From Cladopsammia gracilis (Eukaryota > Cnidaria > Anthozoa > Scleractinia > Dendrophylliidae): a DNA stretch of 64,000 nucleotides. How positions within the stretch are numbered: position 1 is the stretch's first letter; the number at the start of each line of letters is the position of its first letter. Below are positions 22,488-50,704 of this stretch, in pieces. The translations under genes were made by a program, and so were the position numbers. Below the pieces are notes generated by a model. It was not told the DNA's origin. It made no database searches and saw only the letters and a list, made by a program, of their open reading frames with translations. Location of the stretch: the NCBI GenBank assembly GCA_022457155.1, contig JAJGOT010000021.1, positions 252,501 to 316,500 on the forward strand, read 5' to 3'.

Positions 22488-22849
22488 AGTAGAGGATATA
22501 TGCCGGTTCTGGCGCATTTCATTAAATTACCGTTAAATTATCGACCATTCACGCTAATTTAACGAGAAAATGGTCCGTTCACACGTTCAGATGTCTAGCG
22601 CATTTCATTGAATTTTCGTTAAATTATCGATCATCCACACTAATTTAACGATAAAAGATATTTCGCAACTCGCGAGTCACGAGTCACGAAGACTATCCTG
22701 AAGAGATACCACTCAAGCAACACTGACGAGTTTCATGGAAGAGAAAAATCGCCACTACCTAAAGAGACTACCTCAAAGAGATACCACTCAAGCAATGTTA
22801 GTGAGTCAAGTGAGGAATTTTTATATGTAAAAAATGGAATTAAAGAAAT
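22488..22849 (+). repeat. Left terminal inverted repeat (about 362 bp)
   Basis: Matches the reverse complement of 38893-39256. The outer ~150 bp show no difference by eye; about ten substitutions or small indels lie further in. The TIR has internal structure: two similar ~58-bp units starting gcgcatttcatt (about 22512 and 22595), each containing cgttaaatta...taatttaacg arms that can fold, and a second pair of units with gagataccactcaagcaa (22701, 22780). The inner edge ends with atggaattaaagaaat, which in the right copy is the start of the polymerase gene. Confidence 0.93.
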
Positions 22850-32532: not shown

Positions 32533-32952
32533 TTGAGTAATGTTGAACTGATGAAGTGGATTTCATACCTTAGAATTCCTAATTTCAAAGGGATATATTC
32601 GAGGGATGAAGTTATGCCTAAAAATCATAGTCCATGCATTATTAATCTCGATTCGCTTGAAAATGCCGGAACTCATTGGGTTTGTTGCGCTCCATCTCAC
32701 GATAATAACTTCGTGTGGTATTTCGATAGTTTTGGAATGGGTTATCCTGAAGAATTTACATGCGTTAGCAAGAAACAGATAATCTATAATTCAAGTCAAT
32801 ATCAAAACATAAAAAGCGTCCTTTGCGGTTATTATTGCCTTTATTTCCTTCATCAATGGTCACTCAAGAAAGATTTTTACGATATCTTACAACCGTTTAG
32901 TTTAACAGATACTATGTTCAATGAAAAGTTCATTAAAAATTATTTTATGTAA
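32533..32952 (+). CDS. Adenovirus-like cysteine protease (maturation protease)
   Basis: Small C5/Ulp1-type protease with the ordered triad: His at 32674 (GTHWVCC), Asp at 32725 (WYFDSFGMG), Gln near 32797 (NSSQYQ) and Cys at 32824 (SVLCGYYCLYF). It would process capsid and core precursors at Gly-x-Gly type sites. The family's conserved N-terminal stretch (KPLSNVELMKW) is encoded upstream of the first ATG of this frame (32551). The interval given starts at the TTG codon where family similarity begins. Translation must start at ATG 32551, enter by -1 frameshift from the pVI-like ORF, or use splicing or a non-AUG codon. The frame is open from 32401. Confidence 0.85.
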   Translation: MSNVELMKWISYLRIPNFKGIYSRDEVMPKNHSPCIINLDSLENAGTHWVCCAPSHDNNFVWYFDSFGMGYPEEFTCVSKKQIIYNSSQYQNIKSVLCGYYCLYFLHQWSLKKDFYDILQPFSLTDTMFNEKFIKNYFM

Positions 32953-32972
32953 TTAAAATTAAAATTAAAAAG

Positions 32973-32999
32973 TTTTATTATACAGATCGTATAATAAAA
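32973..32999. terminator. Hairpin between the protease and zinc-ribbon genes
   Basis: TTTTATTATAC (32973-32983) pairs perfectly with GTATAATAAAA (32989-32999); loop AGATC. It starts 20 nt after the protease stop, and its last base is the A of the next ATG. It contains AATAAA on both strands and shares its core with 28007-28035. It could both end the upstream transcript and form part of the next promoter. Confidence 0.7.
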
Positions 33000-33187
33000 T
33001 GGAACCGATAGGAGATATATATTGCGTCAAGGAACAGAAACATACAGGTAATGCTGAACCGTCAGGTTATGAGATAGCCTCAAACGGTAGGGTATATATA
33101 TGGTGTAAGTGCGCTAATGTAAATTGTGGAATCAAGAAAACCCGTTTCGTTAAGAAATCCCATTTCGATAAGATTTCGGGAAACTAG
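32999..33187 (+). CDS. Zinc-ribbon-like small protein (62 aa), possible frameshift donor
   Basis: Begins MEPIGDIYCVKEQKHTG and has YCVK at the N-terminus, then NGRVYIWCKC and NCGIKKTRFVKK: Cys9 and a CxC-x4-C group. The pattern resembles DUF5679-like mini zinc ribbons of giant viruses and Mavericks (YCVK..T...NGR...C..CG..K.RFVK). The ORF ends with TCG GGA AAC TAG; the last seven bases before TAG (GGGAAAC) are a canonical -1 slippery site, and the PLA2-like frame is open across it. The zinc ribbon may therefore be both a free protein and the N-terminus of a longer fusion. Confidence 0.65.
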   Translation: MEPIGDIYCVKEQKHTGNAEPSGYEIASNGRVYIWCKCANVNCGIKKTRFVKKSHFDKISGN

Positions 33188-33211
33188 TTCAGCCCTCACA
33201 TGGTGGGGGCT
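33178..33211 (+). promoter_or_regulatory. -1 ribosomal frameshift signal: G GGA AAC, 6-nt spacer, stem-loop
   Basis: GGGAAAC (33178-33184) is in register with the zinc-ribbon codons (xxG GGA AAC) and is followed immediately by the TAG stop. After a 6-nt spacer, AGCCCTCAC (33191-33199) pairs with GTGGGGGCT (33203-33211; one G-U) around the loop ATG. The -1 frame is open from 33172 into the PLA2-like ORF. Heptamer, spacing and stem match known retroviral -1 signals (G GGA AAC is used by type D retroviruses). Function is inferred. Confidence 0.7.
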
Positions 33212-33252
33212 TTCTTGATGTGGAAGGTAGCCATAGTCTTGGAGAGATAGCT

Positions 33253-33828
33253 ATGAAATCAGCTATGAAAGGTCTTTACAATTTAGGAAAAATAGGAGCG
33301 TCAAAAGCCGTCAAATCAGACTTTGTAAAGAAAAAGATTAAATCAACCGCTAATAAGTATATAGATCAAGCTTTGGACAGTTTCACGGGAGACTTATCGA
33401 AAAGATTCGATCCACTTCACCGGGGTAACGGTTTCGACATTCATAATGCGATTTTAAAACTTCCGAAACCAAAAGGAGGCTGGACATTACCAGGACATAA
33501 ATATACAGGTCCAGGAAATCCGATACGTGATCAGGTAGATGCAGATTGGGAAGAAACAGGTAAAATACTGAAAGTTTACGATCAACCGACAGGAAGAACG
33601 GATGCTGTATCGATGCAACATGATGTTGATTATACCGTCTGTGCAAATAAACCGGATCCTCGAAAATGTAAAAATGAAGCTGATAGGAAAATGGTGAAAG
33701 CCTTGGATAGTATACCCTATAGCGAAAGACAGTGGGGTCATGCGCTAGCAAGAAATGTAATAGATACTAAACAAAAACTTGGAATGGGTGCTTCAAAAAA
33801 CGGAAAAAGCCGCCGAGTAAAAACGTAA
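33253..33828 (+). CDS. Parvovirus-type phospholipase A2-like protein (191 aa from the first ATG)
   Basis: Numbered from ATG 33253, it has YTGPGN (residues 84-89, calcium-binding loop), QHDVDY (HD at 123-124, catalytic) and NEAD (Asp 144), the order and spacing of the secreted-PLA2-like domain of parvovirus VP1. There that domain breaches endosomal membranes during entry. The N-terminal third is basic and helical. The frame is open upstream to 33172 with no ATG, and overlaps the zinc-ribbon ORF at a slippery site, so an N-terminally fused form is likely. It ends inside the stem-loop region that precedes the integrase. Enzymatic activity is not tested. Confidence 0.7.
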   Translation: MKSAMKGLYNLGKIGASKAVKSDFVKKKIKSTANKYIDQALDSFTGDLSKRFDPLHRGNGFDIHNAILKLPKPKGGWTLPGHKYTGPGNPIRDQVDADWEETGKILKVYDQPTGRTDAVSMQHDVDYTVCANKPDPRKCKNEADRKMVKALDSIPYSERQWGHALARNVIDTKQKLGMGASKNGKSRRVKT

Positions 33829-33894
33829 AGACGTGGCAAGAACAGTTAGCTGATGAGTTGCATAAACCTATAAGACGAAAGTTTACTCGGCGGC
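33795..33894 (+). promoter_or_regulatory. -1 ribosomal frameshift signal: A AAA AAC, 7-nt spacer, 13-bp stem
   Basis: AAAAAAC (33795-33801) is in register with the PLA2-like codons (tcA AAA AAC). After 7 nt, GCCGCCGAGTAAA (33809-33821) pairs perfectly with TTTACTCGGCGGC (33882-33894), loop 60 nt. The zero-frame stop TAA (33826-33828) lies in the loop. The -1 frame is open from 33771 into the integrase. A AAA AAC is the MMTV gag-pro type heptamer. The GC-rich stem stands out in this AT-rich element. Confidence 0.75.
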
Positions 33895-34769
33895 GTGTTA
33901 TTGTAAACGGTATCGATGATATATGGTGTTCTGACCTTGTTGAGATGCAGCAATATAGTAAGTGGAATAAGGGTTATCGGTATCTTCTTATGGTGTTAGA
34001 TATTTTCAGTAAATACGGCTGGATTGTACCGTTGAAGAATAAAAAGGGAGAGACCGTTGCAGAAGCGTTCAAAACAATACTCAAGAAAGGAAGAAAACCA
34101 AGAATGTTGTGGACTGATAAGGGTAAAGAGTATTACAATAAGAATATGAAAGAACTGTTAGACAAAAATAAGATAACAATATATTCGACAGAGAATGAAG
34201 AAAAATCTACTGTTTGTGAAAGATGGAACCGTACGATGAAACTGAAAATTTCTAAGCAAAAAACCATCCAAAACAATACCGTGTATTATGATGTGTTACC
34301 GAAGATATTGAAAAAATACAATAATACAAAACACCGAAGTATTGGGATGACGCCTGTGGAAGCGTCGAAGAAAAAGAATGAAAGTGCTGTTTACTTAAAT
34401 CTGTATGGAAAGATGAGACCAACAGCTACGCATAAACCGAAGTTTAAAGTTGGTGATAAAGTTCGAATATCAAAATATAAACGTCCTGTTTTCGATAAAG
34501 GTTACACACCGAATTGGACTGAAGAGATTTTTACTATTGATAAGATTCAATACACTAATCCGATAACTTATAAAATAAAGGATGAGATGGGTGAGGAGAT
34601 AACGGGTACTTTTTATGAGCAAGAGTTGCAGAAGGCTGTTCAAGATGTTTACCGGATTGAGAAAGTGATTCGACGAGATGCTCGAAAAGGTAAAGCGTTA
34701 GTAAAGTGGAGCGGTTACCCAGAAAAATTCAACCAATGGATAGACCTGAAAGAACTGAAAGAACTGTAA
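33801..34769 (+). CDS. Retrovirus-like DDE integrase with chromodomain
   Basis: The DDE core has Asp in WCSDLVEM (codon at 33933), Asp in WTDKGKEYY (34116) and Glu in VCERWNRT (34218), followed by an SH3-like region (FKVGDKVRISKYK) and a C-terminal chromodomain (YRIEKVIRRD...VKWSGYPEKFNQWID). It inserts the element, making 6-bp duplications; the chromodomain may steer insertion to marked chromatin. The frame is open from 33771, but its first ATG (33945) lies after the first catalytic Asp, and conserved residues (TWQEQLADELHKP) lie upstream. The interval given starts at the -1 slip point. Translation by frameshift from the PLA2-like ORF is favoured; splicing or non-AUG start remain possible. 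Confidence 0.9.
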   Translation, partial: RKKPPSKNVKTWQEQLADELHKPIRRKFTRRRVIVNGIDDIWCSDLVEMQQYSKWNKGYRYLLMVLDIFSKYGWIVPLKNKKGETVAEAFKTILKKGRKPRMLWTDKGKEYYNKNMKELLDKNKITIYSTENEEKSTVCERWNRTMKLKISKQKTIQNNTVYYDVLPKILKKYNNTKHRSIGMTPVEASKKKNESAVYLNLYGKMRPTATHKPKFKVGDKVRISKYKRPVFDKGYTPNWTEEIFTIDKIQYTNPITYKIKDEMGEEITGTFYEQELQKAVQDVYRIEKVIRRDARKGKALVKWSGYPEKFNQWIDLKELKEL

Positions 34770-34825: not shown

Positions 34826-37800
34826 CTATTTTGTTTTATAATGTCCGTACGCAAGTGTGTGAATTCTATCAGGTTGTATTATTCTCTTATCATCATCTGC
34901 TGAAAGAGCGATCTTATTCACCTCTTCCGTAAATACTTCATGTTTACGACTCCTTATGGTATACATCTTTCGGTATTGTTTTCCACCTCCAAATAAACAT
35001 TTCTTATAATCATCGAATTTAATACTTTTATTTCTTACCGACTTCGTTACTCCTTTACACTTCTTCTCCTCCTTTCCCTCATACATCTTATAACTGTAAA
35101 GTTTCGACCTCAACCCTACAAATTCTTCTATTATTTTACCACCAGCTTCATCCTTGAACATTCCCACCACTTTCTTATTTACTCCTTGTTGTATACCTGA
35201 CGGATGATCTTCTGGAAAATTACTCGTATCAAACTTGGCAACTACATCATCGCTTATATCTTTGTAAAAGTCTTTTGTTTCAATCTCATATGCTAAGCTA
35301 TCCGTATCGGTAAATAGTAGCTTTACTTTTTCACCGTACTTTGGTTTGATGTAGTTATAATGAAAATCGTACATTAGTGTTTTACTCAAATCGAGGATAC
35401 ACATACCGATATATACCGGTTTGTTGAATTTAATTTTTATCTTTTTCATGTCGACAGCACATAAATGTTCTGAGAAGATGGTGCAGTGTTTGAAGTTGGG
35501 TTTTGCTGCTAGTTTCTTTGCTTTCTTTTCCGAGTTGAGTAGACGTACATCCACTCTGTTACGGATGTTTTCCATCGTTTTTCCAAAGACGGAATTATTC
35601 ATAAGTTTGAAAAACTCCTTTTCAAACTCATTTTGAGCTTTTGCTCTCAAGCGTGTGTTTAAATCAATGTACTTTTTCATCCAATCACTCTCTTCAAATT
35701 TAATACCTCGATGAATCTTTGTGATTTTCATCCCCAAACTCTCATATAGTTTGAGATTTTCATAGTGAAGAATGTATTTCTTTTTGTCATTCAAGTTAGG
35801 TATTAGTTTCTCCACTTTGTTTACCTTCACTCTCTCTGGAGCGAGAGGGTAGTCATTATGAAGGTCGTGTATTTCATATGGATACTCGAGGTCGACCTCG
35901 AGTATGCACGGTATACCGTCATTTCTCCAATTAACCAATTCATGATCGCTCATCCATTCGAAACCGCCTATAGGTAATTTCTTACACATAGCCCAACCGT
36001 AAAGGTTATTCGCATCGACATAAACATCAAATGTGTCAGACTTACTCTCATCATACTTTTCTTCCATGTAGATGTTGTTGGCTTTACCATACCTGTTTGA
36101 AATCATTGAAATACCACCTCTTATCCCTTTTTCAAACAATAGTAACATATCTGGATCATGTAAAAGTTCAAGTTTGGCACCTGTGCATTTTAATAACGCA
36201 TCCCAAGACAATCCCGGTGCAGTATAATACCAAGCTGGATCAAGGTCGTAATTGTTAATGCAAAGTTCACGAAAGTTTTCAAACACATCGCATAAAAGTA
36301 AAACATCCGACTTGTTGTAGAGATTGTGATAATCTCTTAGTGTCTTCATTTCAAACGTACTCCACACCTTTTGCGCATGTTCATAATCTTCGTCAGAAAT
36401 GCCTTCCCCACTTAGTTTGGAAAAGAATTTATCTTTCGGTGGTAATTGTGTTTCGTTTAATCTGTCGAGGGAGTCCATGTATTCATAAGGATACACACCT
36501 TTTCTCAACATCAACTCAAACTGTTCACCGCTAAAAAACTTGCCTGTGTTTTTAAACTTATCCTTTGATGCGCTCTTGAGATTTGTAACCAATTTGTCCA
36601 AACTTGAAGCCATAAAGTTGAAACTGTCGACAAATCGTATTTGTCGTTTTACATCCTTTTTCTTACCTTCCTTATCCTTATACGTGTCAACCGTTATTTC
36701 TTTCGTGAAACTAATATATTTTTCTTCATTTTGTGGAATACATTTTATTTCACCTTCACTTACACCTAGATTTTTGATAAATAGATGAGAATCATACCCA
36801 CACAAGTTGTGTAAAAAGACAGGAATAAATGTTGCTTTCTTACATTTTAGATTGCATTCATTATGAGCAGCACCGCGAAATCTTCCGGTATAATGACAAT
36901 GATCACGTACTTTTTTTAGTTTATCACTAGAATTCTCATCTTCAAATTCACCTTTACAGATCCAACACCTTGCTGCCCTTTCAAATTTACGTCTCTCTTT
37001 TTCCTTATAAATCATCTTCTTTGGGGATTTAAACTCGTTATATATTCTCTTAGTTTCACATTCTAACATATCCATAAATTTTTGACTTACATCTTCATCT
37101 TCAGAGGTTGCTGTATATTCAACAAGTTTTGAATACTTATCATCAAAATTACACTTTATGTAAAAACAAAAACTTGATGGTTTATGCTTTTGTAACTTCT
37201 TTGTGTAACTCTTTTCTTCTTCTTCTTCTTCTTCTTCTTTTTCTTCTTTAGGAATCGGTTTGATGGTTGACTCAAAATCTGCTATGATAGTGAATTCTAA
37301 AGGTATTTTTCGTTGATGGTTTTTAAATAAAAGAATCGTTCCTTCACCTGGCATTACAATTTTAACAGCCTCATTATCTTTACAGTATTCTTCATGTTTT
37401 TTTAACAATTCTTCTGTACTTCTATAGTTGAGGCATCTTAAACAAAAATACTTTTTATGTTCATTCTTTGATGTTTGATCTGATAACAGTCTACTCATAC
37501 TCTTAATGAGACAGTAGTGTTTCTTTTCACCTTCGGAAATGAGTAAGAGATTTACATGGTTTGTACGATTTTTTTGATTTACATAATCACTTACTTTCAA
37601 AGGGTAAACTAATCTTTCATACCCATAAACATTAATACTTATTGTCTCGTTTTGTTTTTCAAAACGTTTAAGATCCTTCAATTCAAATGGAAACTCAATT
37701 CCATCCCAGTTTAATTTTTCAGACTGTTTCCTTAATATTTTCGTTATACGTTCACCATCTCTAGTTACCGGATTTAACGCTCTTGTGATGCACCATTTAA

Positions 37801-38908
37801 AACATTCATCGTCATCGTTTTGCATGTTTATTATTGCCTTTTTATCTGAGAGTTTCTTTGGGAGTTGTATGTAGGAGGAACCTCTCAGCGGTTCATATTT
37901 TACTGTATGAAGCTCCAAAGCAACAATTGAATCAAATATCCAATTACTACCTCGTTTTTGATATGCTGCTAAACTCTCTAGTATCTTACCCATCATTTTT
38001 TGGTAGAGATCGTCAAGGTTAGTACCTTGAAGGTTTATTTCAACATTTGAAACAAAATGACCAGTTACATACTCTACTTCACCGGTTACTATATTTGTTT
38101 TCGACATGGAACACTTTAGGATTAATTTCAACTTTATGTTGTGATGTTCGTTTAGGAACTGAAGTATAGTTGGTTTTACAGCTGACAAGAATGTTTTTGG
38201 ACCATACCCCTTAACTCCATCAATAGTATATTGCACGGCAAACTTTTTCAAAGCTGACTTCCTCTCTTCAAGCTTGAACGCGCTTGTTTGTTTAGGCTTT
38301 AAATTTTCTAAAGCCACTTGGAGTGAATTTCTTTTTGAAATCCACTGTTTTTTCTGTTTGTTATTTTTTACCTTTTTTTTCACCTTTTGGAGTTTTTTCT
38401 TGATTCTTTTGATCTGTTTAACTTTTGCTTTATCATTCACCACTTCAACAGGTGAAGGTATTTCAAAGTTCTTTTCTTCTCTTTTCTGTCTGCGGGTTTG
38501 TTTAGTTTTCAACTGATAAGGTTTTGGTTCTGCTTTTCGTGGAGGAGGTGGTGTTTGTTCTCTTTCCCTATGCGAAGCTGGTTCTTCTTCTATAAAATTA
38601 ACAATACCACGTGGTGGTTCTTCTTCATCTATAAAATTAATGATACCATGTGGTGGGGGAGGGTTTGAAGATTGATCAGTAGTATTAGCAGCTATTCGTT
38701 GTCTTCTCTTTTTTGAAAGCCTCTTCTTTTTGACTTTATCTTTCTCTTCCTTTTGTGATTTAATACTACTTTCGATATTTTTGACTAGTTCTTTCTTACT
38801 CCAATCTGAATAACCTTTCAAACCATTTTCACGTGCAATTACCCTAAGCTGTTTAACAGTTTTTGAATCCATCTTATTTGTATGCGTACAAGATTTCTTT
38901 AATTCCAT
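34826..38908 (-). CDS. Protein-primed family B DNA polymerase (1360 aa)
   Basis: Exonuclease motif I ADFEST near residue 543, a Zn-finger-like insert (CWICKGEF...DHCHYTGRFRGAAHNEC, about 650-680), Exo II around CGYDSHLF (about 706), Exo III YNKSDVLLLCDVF (about 865), polymerase motif A DVYVDANNLYGW (about 963), motif B NNSVFGKTMEN (about 1103) and motif C FTDTDSLAYE (about 1199). The N-terminus has a SAP-like module (MDSKTVKQLRVIARENGLKG) like the left-end proteins, then low-complexity PP(H/R)GI(I/V)NFI repeats and a Glu run encoded by a TTC microsatellite (37211-37245). It replicates the element, probably primed by a terminal protein. The first ATG lies inside the right TIR; the second Met (residue 13) is an alternative start. 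Confidence 0.95.
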   Translation of the reverse strand: MELKKSCTHTNKMDSKTVKQLRVIARENGLKGYSDWSKKELVKNIESSIKSQKEEKDKVKKKRLSKKRRQRIAANTTDQSSNPPPPHGIINFIDEEEPPRGIVNFIEEEPASHREREQTPPPPRKAEPKPYQLKTKQTRRQKREEKNFEIPSPVEVVNDKAKVKQIKRIKKKLQKVKKKVKNNKQKKQWISKRNSLQVALENLKPKQTSAFKLEERKSALKKFAVQYTIDGVKGYGPKTFLSAVKPTILQFLNEHHNIKLKLILKCSMSKTNIVTGEVEYVTGHFVSNVEINLQGTNLDDLYQKMMGKILESLAAYQKRGSNWIFDSIVALELHTVKYEPLRGSSYIQLPKKLSDKKAIINMQNDDDECFKWCITRALNPVTRDGERITKILRKQSEKLNWDGIEFPFELKDLKRFEKQNETISINVYGYERLVYPLKVSDYVNQKNRTNHVNLLLISEGEKKHYCLIKSMSRLLSDQTSKNEHKKYFCLRCLNYRSTEELLKKHEEYCKDNEAVKIVMPGEGTILLFKNHQRKIPLEFTIIADFESTIKPIPKEEKEEEEEEEEKSYTKKLQKHKPSSFCFYIKCNFDDKYSKLVEYTATSEDEDVSQKFMDMLECETKRIYNEFKSPKKMIYKEKERRKFERAARCWICKGEFEDENSSDKLKKVRDHCHYTGRFRGAAHNECNLKCKKATFIPVFLHNLCGYDSHLFIKNLGVSEGEIKCIPQNEEKYISFTKEITVDTYKDKEGKKKDVKRQIRFVDSFNFMASSLDKLVTNLKSASKDKFKNTGKFFSGEQFELMLRKGVYPYEYMDSLDRLNETQLPPKDKFFSKLSGEGISDEDYEHAQKVWSTFEMKTLRDYHNLYNKSDVLLLCDVFENFRELCINNYDLDPAWYYTAPGLSWDALLKCTGAKLELLHDPDMLLLFEKGIRGGISMISNRYGKANNIYMEEKYDESKSDTFDVYVDANNLYGWAMCKKLPIGGFEWMSDHELVNWRNDGIPCILEVDLEYPYEIHDLHNDYPLAPERVKVNKVEKLIPNLNDKKKYILHYENLKLYESLGMKITKIHRGIKFEESDWMKKYIDLNTRLRAKAQNEFEKEFFKLMNNSVFGKTMENIRNRVDVRLLNSEKKAKKLAAKPNFKHCTIFSEHLCAVDMKKIKIKFNKPVYIGMCILDLSKTLMYDFHYNYIKPKYGEKVKLLFTDTDSLAYEIETKDFYKDISDDVVAKFDTSNFPEDHPSGIQQGVNKKVVGMFKDEAGGKIIEEFVGLRSKLYSYKMYEGKEEKKCKGVTKSVRNKSIKFDDYKKCLFGGGKQYRKMYTIRSRKHEVFTEEVNKIALSADDDKRIIQPDRIHTLAYGHYKTK

Positions 38909-39256
38909 TTTTCACATATAAAAATTCCTCACTCCAACTCACTAACATTGCTTGAGTGGTATCTCTTTGAGGTAGTCTCTTTAGGTAGTGGTGATTTTTT
39001 TTCTTCCATGGAACTCGTCAGTGTTGCTTGAGTGGTATCTCTTCAGGATAGTCTTCATGACTCGTGACTCGCGAGTTGCGAAATATCTTTTATCGTTAAA
39101 TTAGTGTGGATGATCAATAATTTAACGAAAATTCAATGAAATGCGCTAGACATCTGAACGTGTGAACGGACCATTTTCTCGTTAAATTAGCGTGAATGGT
39201 CGATAATTTAACGGTAATTTAATGAAATGCGCCAGAACCGGCATATATCCTCTACT
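38893..39256 (-). repeat. Right terminal inverted repeat (about 364 bp)
   Basis: Reverse complement of 22488-22849 with about ten differences, all in the inner two thirds. Its inner edge includes the polymerase start codon and first five codons (MELKK), so the 5' leader and promoter of the polymerase gene lie wholly in the TIR. The left copy carries the same bases but reads into a stop after five codons. Confidence 0.93.
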
Positions 39257-39747: not shown

Positions 39748-40456
39748 TAAAAAAACTTTAACATGCGAGGTTGATCAGACAGCTGAATTCGATCGATTTC
39801 TTTTAATAATATTTGCCCAATATTTCGGTTAGACAAAATTAACCTTCATCAGGGGCTAAGAAAGCTAAGTGAAGATGGAAGCAAACGGTTACAATATTTA
39901 AAGAAGGGCTAAGATAAAATGCTGATACATGATAGGCTAATAAACAAGTAACGGTTGAAAACTAGAAACGGCTAGTAATGATTATAACAATAAATATGTG
40001 GAAGATTAAATTTCGTCGCGGATCATGTCTCTATTAGAATTAATGAGTTCTAATGGGATGATTTGGAGGTCGGTAATGGAGTGTCCGGTGAGAGCACGTA
40101 TGTGTTCTCCAAATCGATCACTGACTTGACGTTTTGTCTCATCGATGTATTGTGTATGACATTTGGCGCATTGGATCATGTAGATGACGTTCGTGGATGT
40201 GCAGCAGATCATACGATGTCGTATTTGTCGTTTTTCACCTGTAAAGAAGAAGGTGTAAAACGTGTTTCCTTCTTTGATAAAAGAACATATTTTCTCCCAT
40301 TTTAAATATTGTAACCGTTTGTTTCCATTTTCACTTAACTATCTTAGCCCCAATGAAGGTTAGTTTTGTCTAACCGAAATATTGGGCAAATATTATTAAA
40401 AGAATCGAACGAATTTAGCTGTCTGATCAGCCTTGCATGTTAAAGTTTTTTTTTTT
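39748..40456 (-). mobile_element. Penelope-like element remnant with ~150-bp inverted flanks
   Basis: Arms at about 39748-39900 and 40301-40450 (aatatttgcccaatatttcg, then gttagacaaaattaacctt and their reverse complements) enclose a minus-strand ORF at 40006-40212. The ORF reads VIYMIQCAKCHTQYIDETKR and then SDRFGEHIRAL, a GIY-YIG endonuclease start as in Penelope-like elements. The second signature reads YID rather than YIG, so the fold is damaged. The reverse transcriptase is gone. Confidence 0.65.
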
Positions 40457-43880: not shown

Positions 43881-46064
43881 TCAATTGGAATTACGAAGTT
43901 TGTTAACAAAGTTCAGGCGAACTTCAGCAGCATCTGAAGTATGGAAGTGGCACCGATGAGACAAATCAAACGCAATTTGCGCATGCGCGCAAGCATCGAC
44001 AAGACGTTGCTCCCGGAAGTACTGATCCGATCGAACCAACTGATACTGAACCTGCGCGATCTTTGTCATTTCGGGTGTGAAGTTGATTTTTAAGCTGTTG
44101 AGACACTGCTTTGCCTCAAGGAGTGCTTCTTCCTTTACTGAGCGGCTTTCTCGTCCGGATTTTGTGAAAGAGTCGAGAAGTAACATTGTTTTCTTTATCA
44201 GCGCTATATCGTGCATTCGCGAGAGTAAACTGTTGGCACCTTCTTTCAGTCCAAGTGAGGAGATTTCAATACAGCGATCAAAGCATCGCTTGGATTCTTC
44301 AGCCATAGAAGCCATGTGGGCCTGTTCAAGAAGCAGACAGCCCTCTTCGTAGGCAAGGGACCCACGATCTAAAATAGAGGCTGAGTTATTTAGATGCTTC
44401 TTGGCTAAATCAATGCATCTTCGGGCTCTACCCAAAGCCATCTTATCTCTTCGATATATTTCCGCCAAGTAATAACTTCCGCGACCTTTGCACAGGGATA
44501 CCAAGCTAGTTGAAGCATCTGGAACCTTGGCCATTGCTTCCTTGATAAAACCCTCTGCGGATTTCAGTTCGTTTCTATAGCAAGCAGCCATTCCTTGTTC
44601 GAGGATGACAGCAATCTGTAGATCAATGTTCCCGGCGTATTTCTTCAGCAACTGCTCAGCCTCACGATTAAATTCGTCCCATTTACCGTCATCTCGAAGA
44701 TCTCTCAAAATCTCTATAATTTGCAAACTTTGCTCAAAGAAACCAGAAACTTCCGCCGGAAGTGATTTTTCTTCCGACGCGATTTGGTGACTTTGACCCG
44801 GAAGTGACGTTTCCTCAGAACCCATTTTTGGCAAATACTGTCGCTTTCTTTTCCTTTTGGGTGGAGTTCTTTTGCTTGTTTCAACAGTCATGTGTTGTTC
44901 TCCCGGAAGTGAAGTTGTCCTTGTGGCAAAGTGATCCGGAAGTGACTTTTCTTTGGGATTGGGTGTATCCTTTTGTTCGCTTCTGTCAACGTGACACTGT
45001 TCCGGAAGTGACGAAGGCTTATCATGAATTCTTCCCGGAAGTGATGTCTCTTCAGAAATCAATCTTTGCCTTTTGTTCCTTGTATGCGATGGACTCTTTC
45101 GTTCGCTTGTATCAACAGTAATGTGAATCTCATCCAATAGTTCACTTGACTGAGTTCCAGTTCGTTTCTTCCACAAAGAAAAAGTAACGATATATCTTCT
45201 ACTGGGTGTCTGAAAACGAAACCAGAATCCAACAACACCTTGGAAAAAGTCGAAGGAAGCGTCGCGCACGAACAACACTCCATCCCTGATTTCCTTTTTG
45301 CCATTCCTGCTACATTCGCTCACAGTCACTTTAACGTCGAAATAAACCTCCACTTTCTTCGATCTTCCGAAACAAGAGCTTTGACCAAAGCTGTATTCAA
45401 GAGCGCGCGCTGTACAACGATTTTGGCACACTTCAAGCACCACTAGATGATCTTTGTGGAGTTTTGGGAAGTCTTTTGCATCCTTAAACACTGAAGTATG
45501 CTTCGTAGGCGATCGGAGAACTCGAAGGATTGGCTTCGTACTGTCGAACACATTGCGAAAACCGCCAAGATTAATCACAACGTTGTTTTTGTCCCCAATG
45601 TGAGCATGGCAAGCGTTGATTTCAGAAACCGCAGTAAACCCTTCAAGATAAGGTTTGTCATCCAAAGGCGGAATTATCCGGACAAAATCCGCACATATGT
45701 TAATCGATTGACGAATTCGTCTTGCATTCTTAATCACAACAAGTTCTTCCGACCCACTATATCTTTGCAACACACGAACAACCAGTTCATCGTCTTCGGA
45801 CACTTTCGTGAGACAATCGGAAACATCGTCGGGCATGGCGAGGTCAAAGAGACCAACACGAATGCTATTATGTTCACCAACTTGTAAATAAACAGTCCGA
45901 GCTTTGAAGATGATATTTCTTTGTTGCGCTTTAAGATATGAAGGGTCTTTCTCGCTTCCTTCTTTCGATTTCGGCAGTAACACTTCGACTATCTGTCCTC
46001 TAATTTTGCTTCCGATGAAGGGGACTCGGGCCAAAGTCCTGCCTTCGCCTTCTCGAAGCGACAT
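43881..46064 (-). CDS. Intronless protein with unknown N-terminal domain, SLPG repeats and TPR-like C-terminus (727 aa)
   Basis: A single minus-strand exon. Residues 1-310 are beta-rich with several Cys and end in GVVGFWFRFQTPSRRYIVTF; the family was not recognised. Residues about 320-460 are low-complexity with at least six (T/S/K)SLP(G/E/D/A) motifs spaced about 15-30 residues apart, and a probable nuclear localisation signal PPKRKRKRQYLPK. From about 465 to the end, helical pairs with Ala/Gly/Tyr patterns (AACYRNELKSAEGFIKEA, LGRARRCIDLAKKHL) look like TPR repeats. It is a paralogue of the protein at 48384-50225, with the same order of parts. The TPR half suggests a scaffold; no enzymatic motif was seen. 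Confidence 0.7.
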   Translation of the reverse strand: MSLREGEGRTLARVPFIGSKIRGQIVEVLLPKSKEGSEKDPSYLKAQQRNIIFKARTVYLQVGEHNSIRVGLFDLAMPDDVSDCLTKVSEDDELVVRVLQRYSGSEELVVIKNARRIRQSINICADFVRIIPPLDDKPYLEGFTAVSEINACHAHIGDKNNVVINLGGFRNVFDSTKPILRVLRSPTKHTSVFKDAKDFPKLHKDHLVVLEVCQNRCTARALEYSFGQSSCFGRSKKVEVYFDVKVTVSECSRNGKKEIRDGVLFVRDASFDFFQGVVGFWFRFQTPSRRYIVTFSLWKKRTGTQSSELLDEIHITVDTSERKSPSHTRNKRQRLISEETSLPGRIHDKPSSLPEQCHVDRSEQKDTPNPKEKSLPDHFATRTTSLPGEQHMTVETSKRTPPKRKRKRQYLPKMGSEETSLPGQSHQIASEEKSLPAEVSGFFEQSLQIIEILRDLRDDGKWDEFNREAEQLLKKYAGNIDLQIAVILEQGMAACYRNELKSAEGFIKEAMAKVPDASTSLVSLCKGRGSYYLAEIYRRDKMALGRARRCIDLAKKHLNNSASILDRGSLAYEEGCLLLEQAHMASMAEESKRCFDRCIEISSLGLKEGANSLLSRMHDIALIKKTMLLLDSFTKSGRESRSVKEEALLEAKQCLNSLKINFTPEMTKIAQVQYQLVRSDQYFREQRLVDACAHAQIAFDLSHRCHFHTSDAAEVRLNFVNKLRNSN

Positions 46065-46195
46065 TTCTAACTACGCAATAGCTTTGTCTGGTCGTTTAAA
46101 AAGCTCACAAACCTTGTATCTCACACGTTTCCGTCTCTGATGCCTCGCTGAAAGGCAGTTTGTTTCCAGCGATTTAGAAATCCACTTGCACTTGC

Positions 46196-48383: not shown

Positions 48384-50225
48384 CTACTCCAAAATCCGCA
48401 GCAACGAATCAAACTCTGATCCGGACGAGCTGATATCACCATCTTCTCCTTCACTTGCACTCACGATCACACCACTGGCTGGTGACGATGCAAGTCGGTT
48501 TCTGGCCGTTGTACGATCTCCTCGCGTGATACTGCGCGTGTGATCGAGCCGTTCCTGAGCGTGAGAAATCTCGGTGTTGAAACCCAACTCTACTGCCCTG
48601 TCCTTCGCCAAACTCGCAAATTTTTCAGCCTCAGCGTAGTTTCCTCTTCGGTATTCTAGATCTGAGCTAGCCAGGTTAAACTGGATCTTCACTCCTTCTG
48701 GAATCTCCGACCAGTATTTAGTTTTCAGCGTGTTCAAACACTCCTGGCCTTTGGCGATGGACTCGTCGCTCAGAACGCGATCTCGCGCGGCCTCCGTACG
48801 GCAATCGAGCAAAAGCATTGCTATTTTGATCAAAGCAAAGTGGTGCTTCTTCACATACACATCGCCGTCTTGCATTTCAACGTCTAGGCACACATCGATG
48901 CACTTTTCGAGATTGCGCAGAGTTTCGTTTACTTGCTTAGGACTCCGGTGTGGTGTGCGGCCGATGAAATCGAGTAACACACTCGCTCTCTCGTAAACGA
49001 TGTAGCTGGTGTCGAGGTTCGTGTGACACGCGCGATTGTTTTGCTCCGCTAACTGTACGTCCTTTTCAGCATCGCCTAGACTTCGTTGTCGTCTCCGGAC
49101 TCCCGCGCGATAACCAAACCCTCTACCAGATAAAATATGGACATTTGTGGCTTGAGGCATCAACTCGAACGACTCATCGATCAGCTTAAGAGAGCCTTCT
49201 AAATCGTTTCTGTAACAGGCTGCCACGCTCTGCTCCAATTTAATCGTTATTTGAGTGTCCGTATCAGGAAATTTCAGCAACAATTTACTTGAAAACTTGT
49301 CAAAATCGTCCCACTTCGCGTTGTCTCGGCGAGATTGCAATTGCTTCATCACCCATGAAGATCGCTTACACAGTTCCATACTTTCTTCAGAAAGCGAAGC
49401 TGGGCCTAATTCCGAACGCGGGGGTACATTTCGTACCGCTCTTTTCCTTGGCTTCCCGGGTTTACAAGATACTTGAGACCCCGTTTCTAGCGTGATCGAA
49501 ATTTCGCTCGTTTTCAAAGCACTGTGTCTCTCTACTGTTTTCATTTTGCCCTTCTCTTTCGCTGGAGCTTTTTGTAAAGCGAAGTTGATTCTATATTTCG
49601 TGTTTTGCTCGTGAAAGCGGAAGAGAAATCCGGCAACACCGGCCATAGATCTTTTGACACCATTCTTGGTTTCACTTTTGATGCGCATGTACTGATAATC
49701 GGGCATTTTGTGTCGAGGATCACCGCTTCCATCGCGACTGTGGGTTACTGTCACAGCTATGTCGTATTTATCTGTGATATCAAGTGCTTCCCTCGTGTGT
49801 TTATTCTTGCAGACCAACAGTTGTACCAAGTGGTCATGTTTGCAATCCGGGAAACCGAGTCTACTGAAGCCGATGCTCAAAATTCCTTCAGGTTTCCAAA
49901 AAGTTTCCAAAACCGGTCCATCTTCGTGTCTGTCGCTTGTATTGTTAAGAGAAGCGGGAATCGTTTCCGTTGAACCGAAACTTATGTCATTGTCTTTCCC
50001 AAATTGCATGATTCGAGCATCAATGTTCAGAACTAAGGCGCCTTCGCTTCCGTCCGTCGCCAATTTTTTCGTGCTGTTCATTCCATCGACGTTTGCTTTC
50101 ACAATTTTTCCGCCGTTTATAGCTGAGGATCCGATCAAATCGAAGTCGTTTGCTTTATCTGTTTCATTTTGGTCGAAACCTTGACAACACCTAGACATAA
50201 CTCTTTGCGACCAAACGATCTTCAA
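48384..50225 (-). CDS. Intronless paralogue with TPR-like C-terminus (613 aa)
   Basis: A single minus-strand exon. The N-terminal ~270 residues parallel the neighbour gene (ILSIGFSRLGFPDCKHDHLV, then MAGVAGFLFRFHEQNTKYRI corresponding to VVGFWFRFQTPSRRYIVTF). A shorter linker includes KPRKRAVRN. The helical half follows: QSRRDNAKWDDFDKFSSKLL, then AACYRNDLEGSLKLIDESFE, then further TPR-like pairs. The tail is acidic and serine-rich (SEGEDGDISSSGSEFDS), absent from the neighbour. The shared order of parts and the AACYRN(E/D)L motif show that the two genes arose by duplication. Function unknown; cytosolic or nuclear scaffold is a guess from the TPR-like part. Confidence 0.7.
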   Translation of the reverse strand: MKIVWSQRVMSRCCQGFDQNETDKANDFDLIGSSAINGGKIVKANVDGMNSTKKLATDGSEGALVLNIDARIMQFGKDNDISFGSTETIPASLNNTSDRHEDGPVLETFWKPEGILSIGFSRLGFPDCKHDHLVQLLVCKNKHTREALDITDKYDIAVTVTHSRDGSGDPRHKMPDYQYMRIKSETKNGVKRSMAGVAGFLFRFHEQNTKYRINFALQKAPAKEKGKMKTVERHSALKTSEISITLETGSQVSCKPGKPRKRAVRNVPPRSELGPASLSEESMELCKRSSWVMKQLQSRRDNAKWDDFDKFSSKLLLKFPDTDTQITIKLEQSVAACYRNDLEGSLKLIDESFELMPQATNVHILSGRGFGYRAGVRRRQRSLGDAEKDVQLAEQNNRACHTNLDTSYIVYERASVLLDFIGRTPHRSPKQVNETLRNLEKCIDVCLDVEMQDGDVYVKKHHFALIKIAMLLLDCRTEAARDRVLSDESIAKGQECLNTLKTKYWSEIPEGVKIQFNLASSDLEYRRGNYAEAEKFASLAKDRAVELGFNTEISHAQERLDHTRSITRGDRTTARNRLASSPASGVIVSASEGEDGDISSSGSEFDSLLRILE

Positions 50226-50704
50226 TTTCTAAACACGCAAATACCGAGTAAACTCGAACAAGGACATTCCGGGAGAAACGGTAACTTAGCGACCCATATG
50301 GCTAAAATCAGGCTGTGAAAATGATTTAAAACAGTTGAAGAACTCGATTTTTTCCGCCTTTAGCGCCTGGTTTTTCCTTTTAAAAACCATAACACTTAGT
50401 TCTGCTTTTGAAAGCAGAAATTTTGGTTTATTTATCATTCCGATCAATGTGTCGGGGATTCCCCTCAGAAATTTTTGCGCGGTGAGGTCGGTCGGCAGCT
50501 GGTCGGCAGCCTATCAGCAACCACTTCCGATTGTTTCCGAAGAATACCGGAAGTTTCCGAGAAGGCTAGAATGACCCTCCCACAATGCAAGGCAGAACAA
50601 CAGATTCCAATCGAGGTTGGCTTGGCCGCGTCTCATCGAATCGAACCCTCCCCAGATTTGTTTTAGCAGGGAATTTCACATAGCGATTTATCATTTATTT
50701 GCAG
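50226..50704. promoter_or_regulatory. Divergent intergenic region between the 613-aa gene and the FERM gene
   Basis: Between a minus-strand start (50225) and a plus-strand gene whose first coding exon begins at 50705. It contains gtcggcag duplicated (about 50488-50508) and CTTCCGA/CCGGAAGTTTCCG words (50523-50556) that fit ETS-type sites. It may be a shared bidirectional promoter plus the 5' UTR exon of the FERM gene. No TATA box is evident. Confidence 0.4.

Follow-up and report, generated by a model that had tools for sequence, protein, structure and literature searches.

Candidate tandem -1 frameshift signals ahead of a start-less integrase frame in a Polinton/adintovirus-like element of the coral Cladopsammia gracilis

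We analyzed a 64,000-nt stretch of the Cladopsammia gracilis genome (assembly GCA_022457155.1, contig JAJGOT010000021.1, positions 252,501 to 316,500 of the forward strand; 877.8 Mb in total), referred to here as the window, which contains a 16.8-kb Polinton/adintovirus-like element. Retroviruses and some bacterial insertion sequences characteristically produce their integrase by frameshifting. The signals and reading frames of this element suggest, with a probability we put at roughly 0.86, that ribosomes undergo two programmed -1 frameshifts in succession and so make a fusion of a DUF5679-like protein, a PLA2-like protein and the integrase. Coordinates are those of the window, on the plus strand unless stated otherwise.

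The integrase frame, with an rve core and a C-terminal chromodomain by Pfam, is open from 33771 to 34769 and has no ATG before 33945. This first methionine, the M of 'DLVEM', lies downstream of the first catalytic Asp codon (33933-33935), which was assigned from its position within the rve match and from the retroviral motif. Solved retroviral integrases match the alignment, some of them from profile position 51 onward. The PLA2-like frame (Pfam PF08398) occupies 33172-33828, with its first in-frame ATG at 33253. Near its end the slippery heptamer A AAA AAC (33795-33801) stands in the PLA2 register and is followed by a 7-nt spacer (33802-33808) and by two arms, 33809-33821 and 33882-33894, that are perfectly complementary over 13 bp. 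We call this arrangement signal 2; its heptamer is in register for a -1 move from PLA2 into the integrase frame. A first-pass annotation, made from the letters of the window, had described this heptamer, gap and stem, the -1 direction, and an integrase frame whose first ATG follows the Asp codon, and its coordinates held when we recomputed them.

The combination of heptamer, spacer and stem at signal 2 exceeds chance expectation. Folding of 33802-33900 yielded the 13-bp stem with z = -4.2, and 0 of 200 shuffled sequences was equally stable. When we searched the window for heptamers, irrespective of frame, with a perfect stem of at least 11 bp beginning 5-9 nt further on, signal 2 was the sole case on the plus strand; the minus strand held 4 matches, all with AT-rich arms and one of them 13 bp long. 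With the threshold at 10 bp or more, there were 7 matches on the plus strand versus 6 on the minus strand. The 3187 plus-strand codons include 15 in-register heptamers. In 60 runs of simulated elements (plus strand), the 10-bp threshold was reached 0.05 times per element and the 11-bp threshold never. Among 20000 simulated stretches, a fraction of 0.00045 produced a perfectly paired stem of at least 10 bp at 5-9 nt, and none produced one of 13 bp.

We then searched the genome with the integrase and scored the best 121 of 5223 first-look candidates, which were 85-100% identical, and, for the 120 copies besides that of the window, compared 1151 bases spanning the start of the integrase. An in-register slippery heptamer exactly 7 nt before the stem was present in all 121. 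It was A AAA AAC in 92 and G GGA AAC in 29, so that slipperiness was kept despite the change of class. The stem had 13 contiguous pairs in 77 copies, 12 in 34, 10 in 9 and 5 in one, and its loop differed in length among copies by multiples of three. In 119 copies the PLA2 frame stayed open over 418 nt or more ahead of the stem, and no internal stop was listed in 119 of the 121 integrases, while many of the more distant integrase copies carry stops. The ratio of nonsynonymous to synonymous substitution rates (dN/dS) was 0.17 for the integrase (28 pairs among 8 copies) and 0.21 for the PLA2 frame, the latter from 4 comparisons only.

To follow the stem further, we assembled a wider set of 163 places, the 121 copies plus 42 others (47 loci less five duplicates, picked from the listed matches for being best-scoring, split or in-frame copies), and matched them to a pattern made up of the heptamer, a gap of 5-9 nt and approximate versions of the two arms (near-arms). 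The pattern was matched by 145 places, namely all 121 copies and 24 of the 42. Because it requires near-arms, pairing among the 24 is partly conditioned by the search; none of the 121 was lost by it. The spacer measured 7 nt and preserved the register in 144 of the 145; L129, the remaining one, is an in-frame fusion through an extra base. In 143 the integrase frame was open to 120 nt beyond the stem (stops in L130 and L157). Pairs 1-10 were paired in 1447 of 1450 cells, versus 25-59% when the 3' arm was slid by 1-3 positions. Pair 6 changed from C-G to T-A in 6 copies and pair 11 from A-T to G-C in 6 copies, both compensatory; pairs 5, 8 and 12 varied to G.U only, and the three broken cells fell in L157, L076 and L134. 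G GGA AAC was found in 33 of the 145 places (29 of the 121, and L131, L132, L134 and L136) with the spacer unchanged. The 3' arm codes for integrase alone, and its codons TTT ACT CGG CGG CGT showed zero synonymous changes in the 111 distinct rows compared, in contrast to the Arg codons that immediately precede it (AGA/AGG and CGA/CGG/AGG). The first-pass annotation had named loss of heptamer and stem in copies that retain the integrase as an outcome that would refute its reading; both are instead kept, in 121 of 121 copies and with covarying stem pairs. The canonical features of a -1 site are thus found here, with a heptamer of the X XXY YYZ type that is in phase with the preceding open reading frame (ORF) in 121 of 121 copies and a stem under selection after a spacer within 5-9 nt (7 nt in all 121, with covariation), though the latter is not found in six places of another lineage that are described below.

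The first shift would occur upstream, at signal 1. ORF0, a DUF5679-like frame at 32999-33187, is the zero frame of this signal and comprises 62 codons from its ATG plus a stop, the same count as in the first-pass annotation; its match to Pfam DUF5679 (E 0.04) is below that family's cutoff. The heptamer G GGA AAC (33178-33184) lies directly ahead of the ORF0 stop TAG and is followed by a 9-bp hairpin with a 3-nt loop (33191-33211, fold -14.7 kcal/mol). Signal 1 was present in 113 of the 121 copies, as GGGAAAC in 91 and GGAAAAC in 22, with TAG at once and a hairpin of 8-10 bp 5-7 nt on. The hairpin arms include AGCCCTCAC/GTGGGGGCT, AGCCCGCCT/GGGCGGGCT and AGCCCCCAC/GTGGGGGCT, alternative pairs that amount to compensatory variation. 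A 9-bp hairpin at this spot was seen in a fraction of 0.00095 of 20000 simulations. An Rfam search of 32900-34100 returned a single match, at signal 1, far below its gathering score.

The same domains occur within single proteins among the best 120 of 6469 protein relatives. PF08398 and PF00665 stood within one protein in 38 of the 120, and 6 of these also carried PF18930 (DUF5679); P0082 and P0085 among the relatives are named gene models and perhaps spliced predictions. The window frames are collinear with P0009, in which ORF0 corresponds to residues 3-46, PLA2 to 98-225 and the integrase to 241-550. In some other copies and species, DUF5679-PLA2-integrase-chromodomain or PLA2-integrase is one ORF, and in the same genome L135 (539 codons) and L141 (531 codons) are single PLA2-integrase ORFs. 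The fusion product proposed in the first-pass annotation is therefore supported in its domain order. Given fused, partly fused and split forms, that order would need no shift, one or two, depending on the copy.

Eighteen of the 163 places lack the GC stem: eleven that are open into the integrase, six with A AAA AAC and a weak stem, and L144, which has an A7 run and a stop 27 codons upstream. The eleven (L133, L135, L141, L143 and L169-L175) are open from PLA2, or in 401-base pieces from the start of the piece. By eye, the fused copies arose in several ways, through a single added base (A, C or G), the loss of 5 nt or an upstream insertion. L135 retains ORF0, G GGA AAC, the stop and, by eye, the hairpin upstream of its single PLA2-integrase ORF. 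We considered these fusions as proof of selection for a fused product and dropped the idea, since fused queries were used to find them; in-frame copies are over-represented for that reason and show only that such fusions exist. Eight of the 18 (L135, L143 and L169-L174) share a different 11-bp stem 6-7 nt past the run, in which two pairs changed on both sides, so this second clade has a covarying stem of its own at the same place. In L170, L172, L173, L174, L135 and L143, A7 replaces A6 at the slip site, which puts PLA2 and integrase in one frame with the 11-bp stem kept. In A7 copies the zero frame would give the fusion, and a -1 slip ahead of the conserved stem would yield a short PLA2 product as the rare one; such a slip on A AAA AAA would meet a stop within 1-15 codons (7 copies). 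It would not restore the PLA2 ending of the split copies, because that ending lies in the other frame. One tentative idea, which we consider rather unlikely, is that slip-run length serves as an evolutionary switch in an element with two -1 shifts, A6 giving mostly PLA2 and little fusion, and A7 the reverse.

We propose that a ribosome in the PLA2 frame would reach A AAA AAC and be held up there by the GC-rich stem that follows after 7 nt, and that a fraction of ribosomes would slip back one base and enter the integrase frame, so that the PLA2 stop at 33826-33828 would not be read. Signal 1, with its heptamer, stop and hairpin, would likewise let ribosomes cross from the DUF5679-like ORF into PLA2. 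The full product would be DUF5679-PLA2-integrase-chromodomain, presumably made at low dose, whereas most translation would end in the small ORF or in PLA2. The slippage itself and its rate we infer. The fusion may work in integration or may later be cleaved by the element's putative protease.

Several observations weigh against this reading. The 121 copies are closest relatives that share common descent, so their counts are not independent events. An in-frame ATG lies ahead of the Asp codon in 51 of them. Two copies (L039 and L127) have fewer than 300 nt of open PLA2 frame ahead of the stem. In 8 of the copies no signal 1 was found, and GGAAAAC, its form in 22, is not a canonical X XXY YYZ heptamer. 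Several degenerate codons outside the 3' arm are also invariant, which makes the invariance of the arm alone modest evidence. Finally, the six places of another lineage (L146, L148, L153, L163, L164 and L165) have A AAA AAC, but the frame is split or broken and the best stem found in them is 4-8 bp. By eye, L165 and L153 resemble recombinants of two families.

One rival explanation is internal or non-AUG initiation within the integrase frame. The first-pass annotation had stated that this integrase cannot be made by ordinary AUG initiation in its own frame, which stood for 70 of the 121 copies, that of the window included, and failed for the 51 in which the early ATG makes own-frame initiation possible; a separate integrase promoter is also conceivable. 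However, both the position and the presence of the ATG vary while the heptamer and stem are constant, and we consider this explanation very unlikely. Equally improbable is that an exon with an AUG, located further upstream, is spliced to the integrase frame. The genome around the element is eukaryotic and donor-like motifs occur upstream in 108 of 121 copies, but by a crude motif there was no acceptor-like site from -300 to the Asp codon in 120 of 121, the single-ORF copies join PLA2 and integrase directly and without an intron, and splicing leaves the heptamer, the constant 7-nt spacing and the stem unexplained; we rejected it on these grounds.

Still less probable is that the mRNA gains a base through transcriptional slippage or editing of the A6 run, an explanation that draws on the run in the window and on the several A7 copies that are in-frame fusions. 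G GGA AAC breaks the A-run, leaving no long homopolymer, and yet keeps a tandem site for ribosomal slippage with the spacer and stem kept in the 33 places where it occurs, which favors ribosomal over transcriptional slippage, and we rejected the latter. That the integrase is a decaying, frame-shifted pseudogene with the signal as inherited background, as the close relationship of the copies and the stops in more distant ones might imply, we likewise rejected as equally improbable in view of its nearly stop-free copies, low dN/dS, compensatory stem changes and heptamer class switch, conservation and covariation already counting against it.

The element is bounded by terminal inverted repeats at 22488-22849 (arms I1, I2 and I10, each 98% complementary to stretches within 38893-39256) and, by the inverted-repeat scan, at 38893-39256. 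On the plus strand it encodes a DUF2738 protein, an A32-like packaging ATPase (Pox_A32, E 4.8e-15 in the Pfam scan of window ORFs), a putative adenain-like protease whose Peptidase_C5 match is weak (E 0.002, below the curated cutoff), the PLA2-like frame and the rve integrase with its chromodomain. A 1361-codon ORF on the minus strand (34826-38911) carries DTDS and NNLYG motifs, which we take to be PolB-like; it has weak Rho_N and Endonuclease_7 matches and gave no Pfam polymerase match and no PDB match. No capsid family was matched among the ORFs scanned. Just beyond the right end, at 39749-40452, is a second inverted-repeat structure, whose arms measure 51-57 nt and which may be a small element in its own right, and two minus-strand ORFs elsewhere in the window, 43881-46070 (729 codons) and 48384-50228 (614 codons), had no Pfam match at E 0.01.

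The inverted repeats, rve integrase with C-terminal chromodomain, A32-like packaging ATPase and PLA2-like protein place the element with Polintons/Mavericks and adintoviruses, and the integrase of a Stylophora coral adintovirus (P0048) is a named relative that is 74% identical. Viral contigs searched with the integrase and with alignment A1 gave no relatives, and phage records gave none. The gag-pro-pol arrangement of mouse mammary tumor virus (MMTV) and simian retrovirus (SRV) type viruses shares with this element A AAA AAC or G GGA AAC heptamers, a spacer of about 7 nt, a downstream structure and, as proposed here, two successive -1 shifts with the integrase in the last frame. Unlike those viruses, the element has as upstream partners a DUF5679-like ORF and PLA2 rather than Gag and Pro, its signal 2 structure is drawn as a plain long-loop stem, and no reverse transcriptase family, expected beside the integrase in retroviruses and long terminal repeat elements, was matched at E 0.01 in the 16 ORFs scanned. 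The OrfA-OrfB arrangement of the bacterial IS3 insertion sequence family is similar in that a -1 shift at an A-rich heptamer fuses a DDE recombinase to the product of the ORF ahead of it, but here the element is eukaryotic with virus-like genes and PLA2 stands in the place of a DNA-binding OrfA.

For the Polinton and adintovirus group itself, passages of PMC11071296 put forward -1 slippery sites for the Penton gene of adintoviruses and suggest that Hexon and Adenain are related in a like manner, and passages of PMC5803895 give the PLA2-bearing CAP and INT as separate ORFs; these passages describe no integrase frameshift. Passages of PMC11071308, PMC3671162 and PMC12567637 make no mention of integrase frameshifting, and we found no report of it for a Polinton or adintovirus in the open-access literature, represented mostly by titles and the opening lines of abstracts.

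If the proposed mechanism is correct, frameshift-made integrases would be found in a large group of DNA viruses and transposons of eukaryotes as well. Integrase ORFs that lack a start codon, and that gene finders may shorten or model as spliced, would thereby also be explained. The presence of fused and split copies within one genome makes the question of integrase dose directly testable.
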